A stretch of DNA of 64,000 bases from an uncultured Lachnospiraceae bacterium (GTDB lineage: Bacteria; Bacillota; Clostridia; Lachnospirales; Lachnospiraceae), in contig CANQPM010000010.1 in the NCBI GenBank assembly GCA_947625775.1, forward strand, positions 1-64,000, given 5' to 3'. Positions 13,042-24,930 of this stretch are shown here, in pieces; the first letter of the stretch is position 1; each line of letters begins with the position of its first letter. A program made the position numbers and the translations under genes. Under the pieces are notes generated by a model, which was not told the DNA's origin, made no database searches, and was given only the letters and a program-made list of their open reading frames with translations.

Positions 13042-13136
13042 CCTGTATGTTATTATATGGTAGCATCAAACTCACAAAACAGGGCGAAATATTCTACGGC
13101 TTATGCCCTGTACGTTATTATATAGCAGCATCAAAC
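13042..13136. repeat. 65-bp-spaced direct repeat containing a duplicated gene tail
   Basis: CCTGTAYGTTATTATAT and the following RGYAGCATCAAAC occur at 13042-13071 and 13107-13136. On the minus strand both encode a C-terminus of the type FDA-A/T-I followed by stop. The second is the real end of the 410-aa protein; the first (reading CEFDATI) is a remnant of an additional copy. Confidence 0.6.
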
Positions 13137-14341
13137 CTAAAGCCCTGCTGCGTATTGTATGTGCCGTTTGCCGTATAGCCGCTGGCGGCATTAGCCTGTG
13201 TCGTCATGTAGTAGTCAATCAACGACACATTTGTAGCAATCGAAGAACTATAGTCCTTAAAGAACCTCTCAATCGAAGACTGGGATTTCCGAAGGCGGTC
13301 TTCGTCCAGCGTCATGTTGCCGTTTTCGTCCAACGTAATCCCGAACTCCTTAAGCTTATCCTTGTTCTGTTCCGTCTTTTCCATAAGAGCCGCGAGGTTC
13401 GAGGTCACGCCAGAATTGGTGCTACTCTTGGCTGCGTCGATCGTGCTGTTGTAGTGTTCCACAAAGCTTTTTGTCGTGGCAAAAATACCTTCAATGTCAA
13501 TCCTTCTAAACGCCTTCCTCGCATACTTTTCGCTATAAGGTTCAAGAAATGCATCTTCGGCAGTGAACTTTTCGATGTCCTCCTTGAGGCTATTAGTGCC
13601 TGACACCGACAATTTTTTGTCATCTGTGTCCGTATCTGCTGCTGTGTCTTTGCTTGCGCCCGCGCTTTGTACCGTACCTGATGAAAGACTTGCAAAACTG
13701 AGACGTGACATTACTGTCGAGCCGTAGCTTATCTTATTATCCTTTGAAAAAAGCTCCTGCACTTTTGAAATATCCGCTGACTTTAATTTATCCTCGTTTA
13801 GCTGCAAAGTGCCGTCACGCTTTACCGTGATGCCGATTTCCGCAAGCTTATCAGCGTTTGCGCTCGAACTCTGCATCATGCCCGCTACGTGTGATGTTTT
13901 TCTTGTCAGCGTGGATTTCTTTGCCGCGCCTACCACGTCATTGTACATAGACACATAATCTTTTACCGCGGAAACTGTCTTGTCTGCAGCGCTCGTCGTG
14001 CTGCCTGACGTTGTTTTGTAAGTGTTTTCGTTCTGCAGCGCCGAAACTGAATTTTTCAGGCTTGAAATACCCGAAGTCAGCTTTGAATTTGCCTCCTGCG
14101 TCTTTTGGGAAACTGTCGGATATTTTTTCTCGTACAAAATCTTGTCAAGGACGTTGCTTGAACTTGACCTTCTGCGGGACGTTGTGGTGTTGGTATTTGA
14201 ACTGTTCCTGCTGCTATTGCTATTGTTGTAATAATCCTTTATAGCCCTGCGGTAGCCGCTGTTGTTATAATTCGACCAGTTCGAATACCACCTTGAATTT
14301 CTTGAAAATCCTGAGTAAAAATCCGAATAATTATAACTCAT
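13118..14341 (-). CDS. FliD-like repeat protein, no flagellar context
   Basis: A 407-residue protein with an Asn/Ser/Tyr/Arg-rich N-terminus (about 60 residues), then two repeats resembling the C-terminal region of flagellar cap protein FliD. The first is VKDYVSMYNDVVGAAKKS followed by ADKLAEIGITVKRDGTL; the second is SFVEHYNSTIDAAKSS followed by KDKLKEFGITLDENGNM. It ends in GFRFDAAI. No signal peptide is seen. No flagellar gene lies nearby, so it may be a secreted or surface protein derived from FliD, or a flagellum-associated protein encoded apart. It is the second gene of an operon with 14393-15580 (51-bp gap). Confidence 0.65.
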   Translation of the reverse strand: MSYNYSDFYSGFSRNSRWYSNWSNYNNSGYRRAIKDYYNNSNSSRNSSNTNTTTSRRRSSSSNVLDKILYEKKYPTVSQKTQEANSKLTSGISSLKNSVSALQNENTYKTTSGSTTSAADKTVSAVKDYVSMYNDVVGAAKKSTLTRKTSHVAGMMQSSSANADKLAEIGITVKRDGTLQLNEDKLKSADISKVQELFSKDNKISYGSTVMSRLSFASLSSGTVQSAGASKDTAADTDTDDKKLSVSGTNSLKEDIEKFTAEDAFLEPYSEKYARKAFRRIDIEGIFATTKSFVEHYNSTIDAAKSSTNSGVTSNLAALMEKTEQNKDKLKEFGITLDENGNMTLDEDRLRKSQSSIERFFKDYSSSIATNVSLIDYYMTTQANAASGYTANGTYNTQQGFRFDAAI

Positions 14342-14392
14342 AATCCTCATCGCCTTTCATTAAAATATAATTGCATCGGCTGTCAAAGTGTT

Positions 14393-15580
14393 TTAATAAA
14401 GCTCCGCGCCGTATTCAATATCAATACCCTTGTTTTTGTCCAAGACATAATCCCTGCCTCCCACAGTCACAGTCTGCCCCGCCTTGAACATCTCGCCTTT
14501 CTGCTCATCCTCGTCATACCGATCGAGCCCGAAAATCTGCCCGTTGGAAAGCCTATCATATCTGCTGTCATATTCTTCCTTTGTAAAAAGCGCTGCCGTA
14601 CCTTTATCCTCTGATAGATAATAAGTCTGCGAACTCTCACCGACGGTCACGGTAAAAAATCCGTTCTGTATGCCCGCACTCGCAAGCTTGCCGCGGATTT
14701 CGTCATTGGTATATTTTGAGTAAAGGCTGTGCTCCTTACCATTTGCCAAATCGCTCCAAAAGCCCGCGTATTCTGCCGCTTCTTTGTCGCGCCTATTATT
14801 AAAAGTGCCTATAATGTCTTCTGCCAAAACCTCACTGCGCGACATTATCGTATGCTCTTTTTTACCCTTGCCTGTGAACTTGTATATGGAATCTTTGTCA
14901 AAGCTCACTTCATTATCCTTTACGGACACATCTTTAGGATTGTCGTAGCCAAGCTTTTCCTGCAAGTCTTTAACGCTGCAGTATTTTTGCGCGCCCAGTT
15001 TCCCATCTTCATCCTGCTTCTGCACATAAAAGTTGTCGTCATCTATATTGTAAATGAAAGAGCCTTTGCTGATCTGCCCTGCCACTTCGTCTGCTGATGC
15101 CGCTTCTGGTTCATTCTGTTTCTGGCTTTTATCCTTATCTGTCTCGTTTTCCGTTGTTTTATTTTGAGCGGAAACAATCTTTGAAACCTCATCTTCTTTT
15201 GAAGCCTCGGGTTCGTTGTCCTTATTTGCGAAAAGCTGTGACAGAAGGCTCATTTTGTTATACTGAGCGGCGCTTTCCCAGTCCATATAGACTGTCCTGT
15301 TAAACTGTTCCAATGCACGTTGTACGGGTGTCTTTTCATTGGCGCGTTCCGACTCTCTCTTGGCTATCGCGCCCAAGTGCGTGCCCTTTGAAGTGTATAG
15401 TTTGAAAGCCGACCTTTTTCCGTTATTATATGTGTCGTTATTTAAAGCTTTAACAGCCGTGTTCTTGTCTGCACTGTTTTTAAACAGTCCTTGAACTTGA
15501 TTCTGCTGCTGCTTATCGACCACCGCGCTTTTGGGCGGGAAAAACGTGTTATTTATTGAATTCCATATGTTCAATGCCAT
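14393..15580 (-). CDS. Hypothetical 395-aa protein of phase-variable operon
   Basis: Not recognised. It starts MALNIWNSINNTFFPPKSAV after AGGAGG (seven-base spacing). It has a Gln/Asn-rich N-terminus, a Lys/Glu/Asp-rich linker around residues 120-165 and a C-terminal part with beta-rich segments (GFFTVTVGESSQTYYLSEDK, GQTVTVGGRDYVLDKNKG). No classical signal peptide or membrane helix. Together with the FliD-like gene it forms an operon whose promoter contains a G10 tract. Confidence 0.65.
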   Translation of the reverse strand: MALNIWNSINNTFFPPKSAVVDKQQQNQVQGLFKNSADKNTAVKALNNDTYNNGKRSAFKLYTSKGTHLGAIAKRESERANEKTPVQRALEQFNRTVYMDWESAAQYNKMSLLSQLFANKDNEPEASKEDEVSKIVSAQNKTTENETDKDKSQKQNEPEAASADEVAGQISKGSFIYNIDDDNFYVQKQDEDGKLGAQKYCSVKDLQEKLGYDNPKDVSVKDNEVSFDKDSIYKFTGKGKKEHTIMSRSEVLAEDIIGTFNNRRDKEAAEYAGFWSDLANGKEHSLYSKYTNDEIRGKLASAGIQNGFFTVTVGESSQTYYLSEDKGTAALFTKEEYDSRYDRLSNGQIFGLDRYDEDEQKGEMFKAGQTVTVGGRDYVLDKNKGIDIEYGAELY

Positions 15581-15816
15581 ACTGCCACCTCCTGACATGC
15601 CTCAGCCTCAAATGCAGAATTAACGCCTACTGCTGATTATTTTTCACGGATTTCAGATAATTGCTGTATTTGATGGAATGTAAGCTGTAAAATCCGATGT
15701 TTAGTATTCAAAACACATAGAAGTTATCGAAACGAACCTTCTATTGATTACATTATATCACTTGTCAGTATAAAGTTACAGAGTAAATTGGAATTTTTTG
15801 TATATTTTTTGTCTTA

Positions 15817-15847
15817 ATTATACCCCCCCCCCGTACATTTTTGTCAA
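15817..15847 (-). promoter_or_regulatory. Promoter with poly-G spacer (candidate phase-variable switch)
   Basis: On the minus strand TTGACA (15842-15847) and TATAAT (15817-15822) are perfect consensus boxes separated by 19 bp, of which ten are an uninterrupted G run abutting the -10 box. Loss of one or two G would give 18 or the optimal 17 bp. The expected transcript has a ~230-nt leader before the 395-aa gene, with a 7-bp hairpin ATAGAAG/CTTCTAT. The rest of the 15581-16052 gap shows no gene; a weaker TGATATAAT box occurs near 15750-15760. Confidence 0.75.
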
Positions 15848-16052: not shown

Positions 16053-17210
16053 TCAATGAATAACATCCGCGCTACATTTTTCAAGTTTTACGGAAAAACG
16101 CGCGTATTCGCCCTTTACGCTTTCGACACCGATTTCACTGTCAAGGGCGTTTGCTGTCTTTGCCGCCATATAAAGCCCCATTCCCGTAGACTTGTACTTC
16201 GCGTTGCGGCGGTTTGCGCCCGTGTAGCCTTTTTCAAAAATATGGCGCATGTCGCTGTCTGATATGCCTTCGCCGTTGTCCTCTATATAAAGAGTAATCT
16301 CCCTGCTGTTAATATTGATTTTGCCTCTTTTGCTGCCTGTTACGCCGTTACTGCCTGTTTCACCGTCACTGTTTATCACGCTATTATTTCTTGTCATTCC
16401 GTTACTGCTTGTCACGTCATTACTGCTCATCACGCCGTTACTGTTTGTTTCGCCGCTACTGTTTTTATCCGCATTTTCTGTCCAGATTTTTATGTATGGC
16501 TCAGGCTTGTCGGAATATTTCACCGCGTTTGAAATAAACTGGTCTAAAATATACACAAGCCACCCTGCATCGGTATATACAAGTGTATCGTCATCAGATT
16601 TTACGCCTGCTCCTACATCTATTGTGAAATTTTTCTGAATGAGAAAAAACTGATTGTTTTTAATTGACGTCTTTATACATTCTGACAGTCGTGTCACTTT
16701 TATGTCAAGGTCTAATATCGGGCTTTGAAGGCGGCAGCCCTGCAAAAGCATATCCGTCTGGCGTTTCATGCGCTCAAGCTGTTCACGCATTGAAGCCCTA
16801 AGCTGTGTGTCCTTTTGCTTTTCGTTCATAATCAGACTTGCGGAAAGCGGCAGCTTTAACTCGTGGCACCATTTTGCGACATAGTCCTGCAATTCTAAGC
16901 TGTCGTCATATTGACACTGAAGCCTTCGCTGGAGGACAAAAACATCATGCTCAGTGATGTCCCCGTTTTCAAATTCTCCAAGCTCTGTGAAGATTATGTC
17001 ATCGGTTTGAAGAAGGGATTTTATTTCGGATTTTCTTTTTAAATATTTTAAGGCGTGATACGCTAAGTCCGCGGCGACGCAGAGCATTATCAGAAAGTCT
17101 ATGTATATCAGATATTTTAAATCTGCAGATTTTACAAGATATATAAAATACAGGCTGTAGGCGGCGCATATCAGGGTTGCAGCCACGGCTCTTGTTATGT
17201 GCTGTTTCAT
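16053..17210 (-). CDS. Sensor histidine kinase (BceS-like, intramembrane-sensing)
   Basis: A 385-residue membrane kinase. Two N-terminal helices (AVAATLICAAYSLYFIYLV and LIYIDFLIMLCVAADLAYHA) have almost no extracytoplasmic loop, as in BceS/GraS-type kinases. The H-box is YVAKWCHELKLPLSASL, the N-box DQFISNAVKYSDKP, and the ATP lid region IEDNGEGISD and GMGLYMAAKT. Between N-box and G1 box the ATPase domain carries a 6-residue repeat tract (see 16332-16463). The partner regulator is at 17946-18635, separated by a toxin-antitoxin pair. No BceAB transporter is adjacent. Confidence 0.9.
   Translation of the reverse strand: MKQHITRAVAATLICAAYSLYFIYLVKSADLKYLIYIDFLIMLCVAADLAYHALKYLKRKSEIKSLLQTDDIIFTELGEFENGDITEHDVFVLQRRLQCQYDDSLELQDYVAKWCHELKLPLSASLIMNEKQKDTQLRASMREQLERMKRQTDMLLQGCRLQSPILDLDIKVTRLSECIKTSIKNNQFFLIQKNFTIDVGAGVKSDDDTLVYTDAGWLVYILDQFISNAVKYSDKPEPYIKIWTENADKNSSGETNSNGVMSSNDVTSSNGMTRNNSVINSDGETGSNGVTGSKRGKININSREITLYIEDNGEGISDSDMRHIFEKGYTGANRRNAKYKSTGMGLYMAAKTANALDSEIGVESVKGEYARFSVKLEKCSADVIH
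16332..16463 (-). repeat. 18-bp in-frame minisatellite within kinase gene
   Basis: About seven degenerate 18-bp units encode six-residue repeats of the type SNGVTG (NSSGET, NSNGVM, SSNDVT, SSNGMT, RNNSVI, NSDGET, GSNGVT). The unit length keeps the frame, so copy-number change would lengthen or shorten a loop of the catalytic domain without truncating the kinase. Confidence 0.8.
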
Positions 17211-17247: not shown

Positions 17248-17595
17248 TTATTCATTCCAATAATCAATTGTCTCCTGCGATGTCGTCGAAATACCAAACA
17301 ATTTATACATGAAATCTTCTCTTTCATCAAACATTTCAACAATAATAATCCTATCGCCGTCAATTCTGTAAAAAAAATAATTATGCCCTATATAAAGATA
17401 TCTGTAATCACACTCTATATCATACATTGCCGATACCAAAACGCCTTTTTCAGCGAAAATTTTAAGTCCATTTACTGCATTTATAATTTTTTTCAAAGAT
17501 TTTTCTGATATTTCCGCTCCAAATTCATTTGTCAAACGAGCACGTAATGTTTTAAGTTTGCGTCTTACAATTTGTGAATATTCAATCCGCCTCAA
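17248..17595 (-). CDS. RelE/ParE-family toxin
   Basis: A 115-residue protein with the RelE/ParE fold signature: EYSQIVRRKLKTLRARLTNE N-terminal helices, RYLYIGHNYFFYRIDGDRI central strands, then IVEMFDEREDFMYKLFG near the end. It starts at TTG overlapping the antitoxin stop, with AGGGGTG five bases upstream. Family members are ribosome-dependent mRNA interferases or gyrase poisons; which applies is not clear. Encoded with the Phd/YefM-like antitoxin at 17592-17852. Confidence 0.85.
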   Translation of the reverse strand: MRRIEYSQIVRRKLKTLRARLTNEFGAEISEKSLKKIINAVNGLKIFAEKGVLVSAMYDIECDYRYLYIGHNYFFYRIDGDRIIIVEMFDEREDFMYKLFGISTTSQETIDYWNE

Positions 17596-17852
17596 TTTTT
17601 CACCCCTAATTCCACCTCTAATTCATCAGCAGATATTGTCCCCTCTTCACGTATTGAAATTTCAGCATCATTTAATTTGCTCATAAGCTGATATAGCGCC
17701 TTCTGCCTGTCAAGCTCATCCAGTTCTTTTATATCTATAATAGCGCACTGCCCATGCCCGTTGCGAGTCAAATATACTCGGTTGCCATATGTGACCTCGT
17801 TAATTACTTCTGTATAATTTCTTAAATCTGATATTGGTTTAATATTTGGCAT
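17592..17852 (-). CDS. Phd/YefM-family antitoxin
   Basis: An 86-residue protein. MPNIKPISDLRNYTEVINEV followed by VYLTRNGHGQCAIIDIKEL is the Phd/YefM DNA-binding N-terminus, and the acidic C-terminal tail (DAEISIREEGTISADELEVE) would wrap the toxin. The start is the second ATG, with GGAGG seven bases upstream. The pair separates the response regulator from its kinase. Confidence 0.88.
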   Translation of the reverse strand: MPNIKPISDLRNYTEVINEVTYGNRVYLTRNGHGQCAIIDIKELDELDRQKALYQLMSKLNDAEISIREEGTISADELEVELGVKN

Positions 17853-17945
17853 ATTCATTCCTCCGTTTTCAATATAAATTTATATTATTTTATACTTTTA
17901 TTATATAAATTTACTGCAAATTATTCAATATATTCGCTTGTAAAT

Positions 17946-22508: not shown

Positions 22509-24755
22509 TTATTCTCTGACATATCCCGCCACTATCATACGCTGCGCCTTTTCATTATAAAAAATGTCCTCGTACTCTGTCCCCTTTTTGCTCACGCGCA
22601 TATCTATGAAAAGCCCTGCCTCTTTGCCCGCATCATAAACCATCTTCTGCCGCAAGCCGTCTATATACTTTTCATCTGCATACCCCTTGGACTGCATATT
22701 TCTGAAAATCTCCGCCCCAGAAATCTTTTTGACTGTTTCGGCATCTCTGAGATTATTCAATTTTTCCGCAATCTCCGTGACATAATACTTTTCAGCATAC
22801 GGGAAATTCTGCGCTTGCTCATTAGTAATGTAAAAGTCTTTCTTTTTGGCATTCGCCATAGACTGAACTGCCACCATGGCAGCTGCCTCGCCTGTTTCGC
22901 CAAAGTACATTTTCTCCCATACACCATTGGTAAAGCTTTTTATCTCATCAAGAAATTCCTCGCCGTAGCGCTCATATTTATTCTGCCCCACGCCGCTTAC
23001 ATTGAGCATCTGCGACATATTGAGCGGCAGCTTGACGCACATGTCCACAAGCGTCTTGTCCGAAAAAATCAAGTATGGCGGCAGCGCCTCTTTCCTTGCC
23101 AGCAGCGCCCGCAGCCTGCGCAGATTGTCAAAAAGCTCCAATCCTCTTGAATTTAGTATGTCCGACCTGCGCGCTGATGCCTTTGGCGGATTTCCTGCAG
23201 TAACAGAAGCGTTTTTAGGTTTTTTCATAATAACCGTCTGCTGTCCGCCTGACACGTCACGCGCCTTGCCTGTCAGACGCAAAAGCGCATACTTGTCCTT
23301 TGTGACATCGAGTATTCCTTCCACAAGCATATGGTTGATAAGCTGCTTGATTTCGACCTCATTCATATCGTTGAGACTCGCAAACGACTGGTATGATGAT
23401 ACCTTGTATTCCCTCAGCTTTGCGCGGTCATTGCCTGAGAGCGTTCCCGCAATCACATTTATTCCGTACCGCCCGCGTGTTTCCGATATGCAGAAAATAA
23501 CCCTTTTCGCCTGCTCCGTCATATCCACTGTGTCATAATCCTGTCCGCAGACAGAGCAGTTACCGCACGCGCCGCTGCCGTATTCGCCAAAGTAATTCAA
23601 AATATATTCGCGCAGACAGCCTGTAGTCAGACAGTAATAATTCATCGCCTGCAGACGCTGCTCGTCACGCTCACGAACCGCCTCATTCTGCTCTTGCGTC
23701 ATTTCTGGATTTGGCTCCTTGTTATCAAGCAGAAAACGGTTTATCATGACATCCTGCGCCGAATAAAGCAGAATACACTCTGACGGCTCACCGTCACGTC
23801 CCGCGCGCCCTGCCTCCTGATAGTAGTTTTCTATGCTTTGCGGCATATTGTAGTGGATAACATAGCGGACATTCGATTTGTCTATTCCCATTCCGAAAGC
23901 GTTAGTCGCTATCATTACAGGACATCTGTCGTAGATAAAATCCTCTTGATTAAGCTGACGTTCCTCATTTGTCAAGCCTGCGTGGTATTTTGTCACGGAT
24001 ATCTGGGAAAGCTTCAGCTTTTCATACAAAGCGTCAACGTTTTTTCGCGTGGCGCAGTATATTATTCCGCTTTCATCTACATGTGCGTTTATGTAATCGG
24101 TCACGTATGCGTCTTTTTTTGACGGAGTTTCCACGGCAAAATACAGGTTTTTCCTGTCAAAGCCTGTCACCAGAAGCTCAGGCTTTTGCAAGCCCAGTAC
24201 GCAGACTATATCCTCTTTTACATTTTCCGTTGCAGTCGCCGTGAATGCGCTTATAATAGGGCGTTTGCCAAGCGCGTTTATAAACTGCACTATTTTCAGA
24301 TAACTCGGTCTGAAATCCTGCCCCCATTGTGAAATGCAGTGCGCTTCATCTATTGTGAGCATGGAAATGTCCGCTCCGCGCGCAAATTCCAAAAAGCCGT
24401 ATGTTTCCAAGCGTTCGGGCGCGACGTATATTATCTTATACTGTCCTCTTGATGCCAACGCCAGAGCTTTTGATATTTGGTTTTCCGTAAGTGAGCTGTT
24501 TATGTATGCCGCGTGGATTCCTGCCTGATTTAAGGCTTGGACTTGATCTTTCATAAGTGAAATGAGCGGTGAAACGACTAGAGTTATTCCTTGCATTAAC
24601 AGTGCGGGTATTTGGTAGCATATCGACTTGCCCGCGCCAGTCGGCATTATGCCCAGCGCATCTCTGCCGTTTAAGATAGCGTCAATTAATGTTTCCTGTC
24701 CATCTCGGTACGTGTCGTAGCCGAAATATTTCTTGAGTGCCTCGTATTTGTCCAT
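22509..24755 (-). CDS. recQ: ATP-dependent DNA helicase RecQ
   Basis: A 748-residue SF2 helicase unwinding DNA 3'-5' in recombination and repair. Motif I is MPTGAGKSICYQIPAL, Ia VVSPLISLMKDQ, II TIDEAHCISQWG with the RecQ-specific DFRPSYLKI, III FTATAT, VI YQEAGRAGRDGE. The zinc-binding module (CLREYILNYFGEYGSGACGNC, then CSVC) and winged helix follow. An HRDC-like domain is visible around residues 550-630 (RRLRALLARKEALPPYLIF). A ~100-residue C-terminal extension is beyond the usual ~600-residue length. Start set at MDKYEALKK by AGGAG upstream; the earlier in-frame start lacks one. Confidence 0.95.
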   Translation of the reverse strand: MDKYEALKKYFGYDTYRDGQETLIDAILNGRDALGIMPTGAGKSICYQIPALLMQGITLVVSPLISLMKDQVQALNQAGIHAAYINSSLTENQISKALALASRGQYKIIYVAPERLETYGFLEFARGADISMLTIDEAHCISQWGQDFRPSYLKIVQFINALGKRPIISAFTATATENVKEDIVCVLGLQKPELLVTGFDRKNLYFAVETPSKKDAYVTDYINAHVDESGIIYCATRKNVDALYEKLKLSQISVTKYHAGLTNEERQLNQEDFIYDRCPVMIATNAFGMGIDKSNVRYVIHYNMPQSIENYYQEAGRAGRDGEPSECILLYSAQDVMINRFLLDNKEPNPEMTQEQNEAVRERDEQRLQAMNYYCLTTGCLREYILNYFGEYGSGACGNCSVCGQDYDTVDMTEQAKRVIFCISETRGRYGINVIAGTLSGNDRAKLREYKVSSYQSFASLNDMNEVEIKQLINHMLVEGILDVTKDKYALLRLTGKARDVSGGQQTVIMKKPKNASVTAGNPPKASARRSDILNSRGLELFDNLRRLRALLARKEALPPYLIFSDKTLVDMCVKLPLNMSQMLNVSGVGQNKYERYGEEFLDEIKSFTNGVWEKMYFGETGEAAAMVAVQSMANAKKKDFYITNEQAQNFPYAEKYYVTEIAEKLNNLRDAETVKKISGAEIFRNMQSKGYADEKYIDGLRQKMVYDAGKEAGLFIDMRVSKKGTEYEDIFYNEKAQRMIVAGYVRE

Positions 24756-24930
24756 TATACTCCTTTTTCGATATATAATATTAGCTTTGCAATATTTTAT
24801 CATATGCATAAGCCCTGTGAATATTTGTAAAAGTTACTGTATTAGTTTATAATATGCACGCTGATAAGTCAAGGATTAAATTTTTCATATTAAAACAAGT
24901 TAAAATTTGAAATGAAAAAAATCACAACGT

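Follow-up and report, generated by a model that had tools for sequence, protein, structure and literature searches.

A conserved poly-G promoter spacer in a gut Lachnospiraceae genome as a candidate slipped-strand dial on gene activity

Does a run of ten Gs between the two boxes of a consensus promoter act as a slipped-strand switch, or is it a fixed part of the promoter that carries it? The question is raised by a promoter, here termed P1, on the minus strand of a 64-kb stretch of DNA (64,000 nucleotides, referred to as the window) from an uncultured Lachnospiraceae bacterium. Read directly, P1 is ACTTGACAAAAATGTAC-GGGGGGGGGG-TATAATTAAGACA, with a −35 box TTGACA at 15842..15847, a −10 box TATAAT at 15817..15822 and a 19-bp spacer made up of a non-G part, AAAATGTAC (15833..15841), and the G10 tract (15823..15832), which ends the spacer, abuts the −10 box and is the proposed site of slippage. 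A sequence-only reading had described perfect hexamers 19 bp apart with G10 against the −10 box, and the direct read agrees with it exactly. A second promoter-like box on the same strand, P2, lies 65 bp downstream of P1 and closer to the gene; it consists of an extended −10, TGATATAAT (15752..15760), with a poor −35-like element, TGTAAC at 15775-15780, across a 17-bp spacer.

Further downstream, also on the minus strand, a Shine-Dalgarno sequence AGGAGG (15588..15593), conserved in the alignment described below, supports the start of the first gene (14393..15580, ATG at 15580), which encodes a protein of 395 residues beginning MALNIW that matches nothing in Pfam or NCBIfam and, judged by a hydrophobicity rule, lacks a signal peptide. 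The second gene (13118..14350, minus strand, 410 residues) is weakly FliD-like, with NCBIfam E-values of 7e-5 and 3e-4 and bit scores far under the cut-offs; of the operon of FliD-like and unknown proteins that had been proposed, the FliD-like part is kept as a weak likeness. A 348-residue paralogue of the first protein is found elsewhere in the window's own genome (G000, C24:16417-19963, L198), amid DUF6033 and FlxA-like genes. The window also holds, at 16333-16461, a degenerate 18-bp tandem repeat of 7.2 copies. It encodes an Asn/Ser/Gly-rich stretch that precedes the ATPase end of the histidine kinase at 16053-17210, and in relative L033 it looks much shorter by eye. Between a histidine kinase and its response regulator sit a ParE-like toxin (just above the Pfam cut-off) and a Phd/YefM-like antitoxin (under the cut-off) at 17248-17858, and a RecQ-type helicase with RQC and HRDC domains is encoded at 22512-24809.

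A contig scan with a 396-residue query found three relatives, all Lachnospiraceae MAGs (Lapin-028, -023 and -024), and a plasmid search with a 396-residue query gave no match. Within the genus, some match to the first protein is present in 9 of 38 genomes, the window's own included, with close orthologues in G428, G429 and G430 that are 94–96% identical. In the alignment of the window's genome with the three related Lachnospiraceae, every column of the −35 box (6/6), the G tract (10/10) and the −10 box (6/6) is invariant across the four genomes, as are 5 of the 9 columns in the non-G part of the spacer; in the leader (15600-15749) 26 of 150 columns are invariant and 113 of 150 are gapped in some genome. 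The P1 spacers measure 19, 19, 19 and 20 bp, and the sole difference, in G430, is one extra base ahead of the Gs and outside the run, which is G10 in all four. The P2 box is likewise invariant in all four genomes, and is conserved equally with P1. The invariance of the −35 box, G10 and the −10 box while the leader diverges shows that P1 is under constraint as a promoter, and the conservation bears out the earlier placing of a promoter here.

The G10 run is the sole G or C run of at least 7 in the window, and by itself it is mildly unusual in a shuffle test: dinucleotide shuffling of the window gave a mean of 0.69 overlapping 8-mer matches against 3 seen, and 8 of 100 shuffles reached 3. The whole genome (3.75 Mb) contains 35 G runs of at least 8, 29 of at least 9 and 16 of at least 10, set against about 2, 0.3 and 0.04 expected when the fall-off of run lengths seen in the window is extrapolated to 3.75 Mb. 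Scaled genome-wide, the shuffle null, which is inflated by the G10 run itself, gives about 40 8-mer matches against 94 seen; poly-G tracts are well over chance by extrapolation, and the excess is less extreme by the shuffle null. A chance run was ruled out by this genome-wide excess together with the column conservation and the recurrence of such tracts in promoters with perfect hexamers.

Exact homopolymer lengths in assemblies are unreliable. Poly-G is error-prone, as is also stated for G-tract sequencing in a Bifidobacterium breve paper (PMC9187656), and the exact lengths given here may be off by one. That the G10 run is itself a sequencing or assembly artefact is nevertheless extremely improbable, given its identical position and flanks in four separate assemblies and the strand bias of such tracts: of the 69 that can be classified, 66 have G on the coding strand (the three that do not are promoter tracts overlying antisense open frames, and 46 of 115 are unclear). 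An assembly artefact is therefore rejected for the existence of the tract, on which the four assemblies agree, and not for its exact length; that the tract exists is nearly beyond doubt.

The design of P1 recurs. The pattern TTGACA-N0-14-G7-N0-10-TATAAT has six sites in the window's own genome, and its reversal none, and 7 of the 61 perfect TTGACA-N14-23-TATAAT sites have G-tract spacers, two of them interrupted. The seven are the promoters on C2, C11, C36 and, in the window, C10 (each G10 and 19 bp), the promoter on C7 (G12, 21 bp) and two on C4 (C4:101211, G7AG3, and C4:109886, G6TG4, both 20 bp). TAC precedes the tract in all seven, and their spacers are of 19–21 bp, none being of 16–18, whereas the remaining perfect-hexamer sites peak at 17 bp (22 of 54), with 14 of 54 at 19 bp or more (p = 2.7e-4). 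An imperfect site on C5 of the same genome, TTGACA-ATA-G13-TAGTAT, has a 16-bp spacer. Among 397 genomes of the family, 20 have matches to the G-tract promoter pattern, 29 in total (control 0), with the Gs abutting TATAAT in 20 of the 29 by hand count; the 23 matches in other family genomes have spacers of 13–20 bp with a mode of 18. Perfect hexamers stand 16 bp apart on C7 of G429, and the spacer in G400 is 18 bp. The window's poly-G promoter site is genuine and conserved, and it belongs to a set.

Five of the seven own-genome promoters precede paralogous LysM-protein genes with signal-peptide-like N-termini (Pfam LysM match to the C7 protein, E 3e-8), and one LysM copy, C4:110016, is broken by an in-frame TAG at codon 63. 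One precedes a 373-residue protein with a signal-peptide-like start, the later part of which is 37% identical to the C-terminal part of the C7 protein, and one is P1 itself. A LysM N-terminal query, run on 19 genomes, of which 18 come from the 37 other members of the genus, gave 35 rows, and 25 loci, a set that leaves out the weak own-genome match C1:20566, were checked for promoters: a G tract is present at 8/8 of the closest loci (61–100% identity, in G000, G428 and G430) and at 2 of the 17 more distant ones, the others comprising one with a poly-C spacer and 14 with neither. At C43 of G427 (L267), a LysM-protein gene has a poly-C8 promoter spacer, TTGACATACCCCCCCCGATGTATATAAT, of opposite strand polarity.

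By our own hydrophobicity rule rather than SignalP, under which some positives in both groups look false, reading frames look exported in 22 of 28 cases after G-tract promoters and in 6 of 28 after TTGACA-N17-TATAAT controls (p = 4e-5), in sets that include paralogues, with one G locus and three control promoters lacking a reading frame and the controls being 30 loci out of several hundred matches. With duplicates removed by hand, one removed case being negative, the counts are 18 of 23 and 6 of 28. The first gene of the window operon is among the six that follow G-tract promoters and do not look exported.

Poly-G tracts also lie within genes. In the window's own genome, 17 of the 29 tracts of at least 9 Gs are within long reading frames, where 9 keep the frame and 8 break it, and the three relatives G428, G429 and G430 carry many tracts as well. 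Across the four genomes, 66 of the 115 tracts of at least 9 have long open stretches on both sides, 41 of them in frame and 25 out of frame. This count drops shorter tracts and the 49 of 115 elsewhere, and the 41 include one promoter tract or more (L176) wrongly scored as coding. Pfam searches of a subset of 19 tract-bearing proteins or pieces matched 14 at E 0.001 or better, among them radical SAM/SPASM, epimerase, methyltransferases, formyltransferase, an MBOAT acyltransferase, a hexapeptide-repeat protein, a sulfatase-like protein, an AMP-binding enzyme and DUF6020/DUF6056 proteins. Such gene content suits surface-modification contingency loci, and surface or glycan genes with tracts in mixed frames, as looked for in a phasome, are present in this subset. 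One 26.5-kb block of G000 (C6:107779-134322, L035 and L036), with radical SAM, epimerase, formyltransferase, methyltransferase and DUF6020/DUF6056 genes, holds twelve poly-G tracts of at least 8, all on one strand and in mixed frames. MutS, with its MutS_I domain, was found in G000, G428, G429 and G430, so loss of the mutS gene does not explain slippage, and loss of mismatch repair was rejected as its cause as far as MutS is concerned.

Promoter and coding tracts share a signature at the level of DNA, often TAC-Gn-TAT, with TA after the tract in any frame and G on the coding strand. TA follows 21 of the 29 own-genome tracts by hand count, against 22 of 179 control runs of 5–6 Gs drawn from loci of all four genomes (p = 5e-11), and it follows 16 of 24 when the five perfect promoters are set aside; the statistic is limited to own-genome tracts because those of the relatives were gathered by requiring TA within 3 bases. 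Within genes, the TA after a tract falls in different frames (giving Gly-Tyr or Gly-Val), and is thus not simply a protein motif. Of 200 family genomes, 38 contain G10TA, with 113 matches in total where the reversed pattern has 17; in the window's own genome the counts are 13 and 0. Two other Lachnospiraceae genomes, G196 and G060, have 7 and 14 matches (control 0); poly-G systems may extend more widely within the family.

At the window tract the four genome assemblies gave a single length, G10, and it is at related loci that lengths differ. The LysM copy C4:110016 is a duplicate of the C7 copy (97% over 117 residues), the homology beginning just upstream of the −35 box; after the −10 box 14 of 398 DNA positions differ, and the tract is G6TG4 (20 bp) against G12 (21 bp), a change that may be decay of a dead copy, because C4:110016 is apparently broken. 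Two LysM-protein promoters of G400 and G424, apparently orthologous by sequence (82% over 1.3 kb by blastn, with an identical spacer start), have G9 with 18 bp and G10 with 19 bp respectively, and in G078 the spacers of two paralogues (92% identity across 1.6 kb) measure 20 and 16. One coding tract reads G9 in G428, where it is in frame, and G10 in G430, where it is out of frame. Its 400-bp flanks are 98.75% and 99.5% identical between the two, in genomes otherwise 94–96% alike at the window protein, a closeness that could also reflect transfer or sample carry-over. Lengths are unchanged between C36 of G000 and C64 of G428 (G10, 19 bp), in the total of 21 between C7 of G000 and C27 of G428, and at L053, where two coding tracts are G9 in both genomes. 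Differences in tract length of the kind that had been proposed are thus seen between related promoters and between coding tracts, and not at the window tract among these four genomes.

Phase variation is the best explanation of these observations, with length change seen only at related loci, by comparison of assemblies, and P1 is likely to be a slipped-strand promoter dial of the porA type within a poly-G contingency system. Since some related copies of such runs, in sister promoters and in genes, differ in length, G10 probably acts as a dial on gene activity that is prone to slippage. P1 would then be a vegetative (σA-type) promoter, one of a family in this group of Lachnospiraceae, in which the distance between −35 and −10 is set by the tract; replication slippage would add or remove Gs, shift the spacer in 1-bp steps and so change promoter strength. 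We infer that the tract switches in the population and that its length sets expression. At the sampled setting of G10 and 19 bp, P1 should be weak without being silent, P2 might serve as a basal promoter, and the tract would form part of a wider contingency system together with tracts inside genes, several of which are of glycan or surface-modification type. Counting against this reading are the constancy of G10 in the four genomes, the want of a signal peptide on the first protein and the presence of the conserved P2 closer to the gene.

The main puzzle is the 19- to 21-bp spacers, none of which matches the 17 bp that G8 would give as the candidate ON state: either the sampled cells are mostly at weak settings, or the working length is longer for G-tract DNA, whose tendency is towards an A-like form of shorter rise. 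The interrupted 20-bp tracts and the constant G10 of the window lean towards a longer working length, and the differing related promoters and the 16- to 18-bp sites of G429, G400 and other family genomes lean towards true variability. On the former side stands a fixed long-spacer promoter, in which the tract is kept at about ten Gs by its DNA shape or by a regulator that works through the spacer, some 19–21 bp is the working length and slippage is incidental and mostly purged. We regard this as unlikely: it accords with G10 in four of four genomes, with the displacement of all seven own-genome spacers from the 17-bp peak and with interrupted tracts that still measure 20 bp, but the relatives vary (16 bp on C7 of G429, 18 in G400), the imperfect C5 site of the own genome is at 16 bp and the matches in other family genomes spread around 18. 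MerR-type activators act on spacers of 19–20 bp, yet all that is visible by eye as an operator is a 4-bp ATAC/GTAT dyad common to many coding tracts, and no MerR regulator is among the 14 window proteins scanned with Pfam. A dedicated Lachnospiraceae class of poly-G spacer promoters, in which DNA shape lengthens the working spacer beyond 17 bp and the shared tract signature stems from a common process that generates or preserves the tracts, is likewise a doubtful reading.

That P1 is inactive or redundant, with P2 driving the operon and G10 neutral or unrelated, we consider improbable. A 19-bp promoter spacing is usually weak, and the P2 box is both invariant in the four genomes and the closer to the gene; such a view leaves unaccounted the invariance of the −35 box, G10 and the −10 box of P1 where most leader columns vary, and the recurrence of the P1 design six more times in the genome. 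If the slipped-strand dial is the true reading, some gut Lachnospiraceae would run a slippage-based contingency system like those of mucosal pathogens, one that takes in LysM proteins, a flagellar-cap-like operon and genes of the surface-modification type. P1-type promoters would also form a natural G-tract series that bears on spacer length, DNA shape and promoter strength. Among the papers listed in literature searches confined to open access, none presents a poly-G system in Lachnospiraceae in its title or the start of its abstract, an absence of weak weight.

Campylobacter and Helicobacter carry many in-gene poly-G and poly-C contingency tracts in mixed frames, a feature shared with the genomes described here. 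Campylobacter is not known to have MutS-type repair, unlike these Lachnospiraceae, which have MutS_I; unlike both Campylobacter and Helicobacter, there is here a promoter class besides the genes, and TA follows most own-genome tracts (21/29). Such contingency genes are described for Helicobacter canadensis. The closest likeness in design is to Neisseria meningitidis, and the earlier suggestion that spacer tracts are a known device for varying expression is documented in PMC2791445, where spacer homopolymers vary the expression of porA, fetA and opc. The optimum spacing of porA is 17 according to PMC7864442, and opc is treated differently in two papers. P1 shares with porA and fetA, as these papers present them, a homopolymer between −35 and −10, a change in the length of which alters spacing and transcription in porA. 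Unlike porA, P1 has perfect consensus hexamers, a tract that abuts the −10 box and own-genome spacers of 19–21 bp, its design is found in seven promoters of one genome of Gram-positive lineage, and the first protein of its operon is not exported-looking. In Bifidobacterium breve, a gut commensal, poly-G slippage controls surface structures by switching pili, and its authors also note further G tracts in promoter spacers (PMC9187656); unlike P1, that switch is a coding frameshift in another phylum, and the length variation there was demonstrated by deep sequencing. The tprL gene of Treponema pallidum has, according to PMC7864442, a promoter poly-G whose length affects transcription without setting the −35/−10 spacing; P1 shares with it a poly-G tract at the promoter and differs in that the tract sets this spacing.
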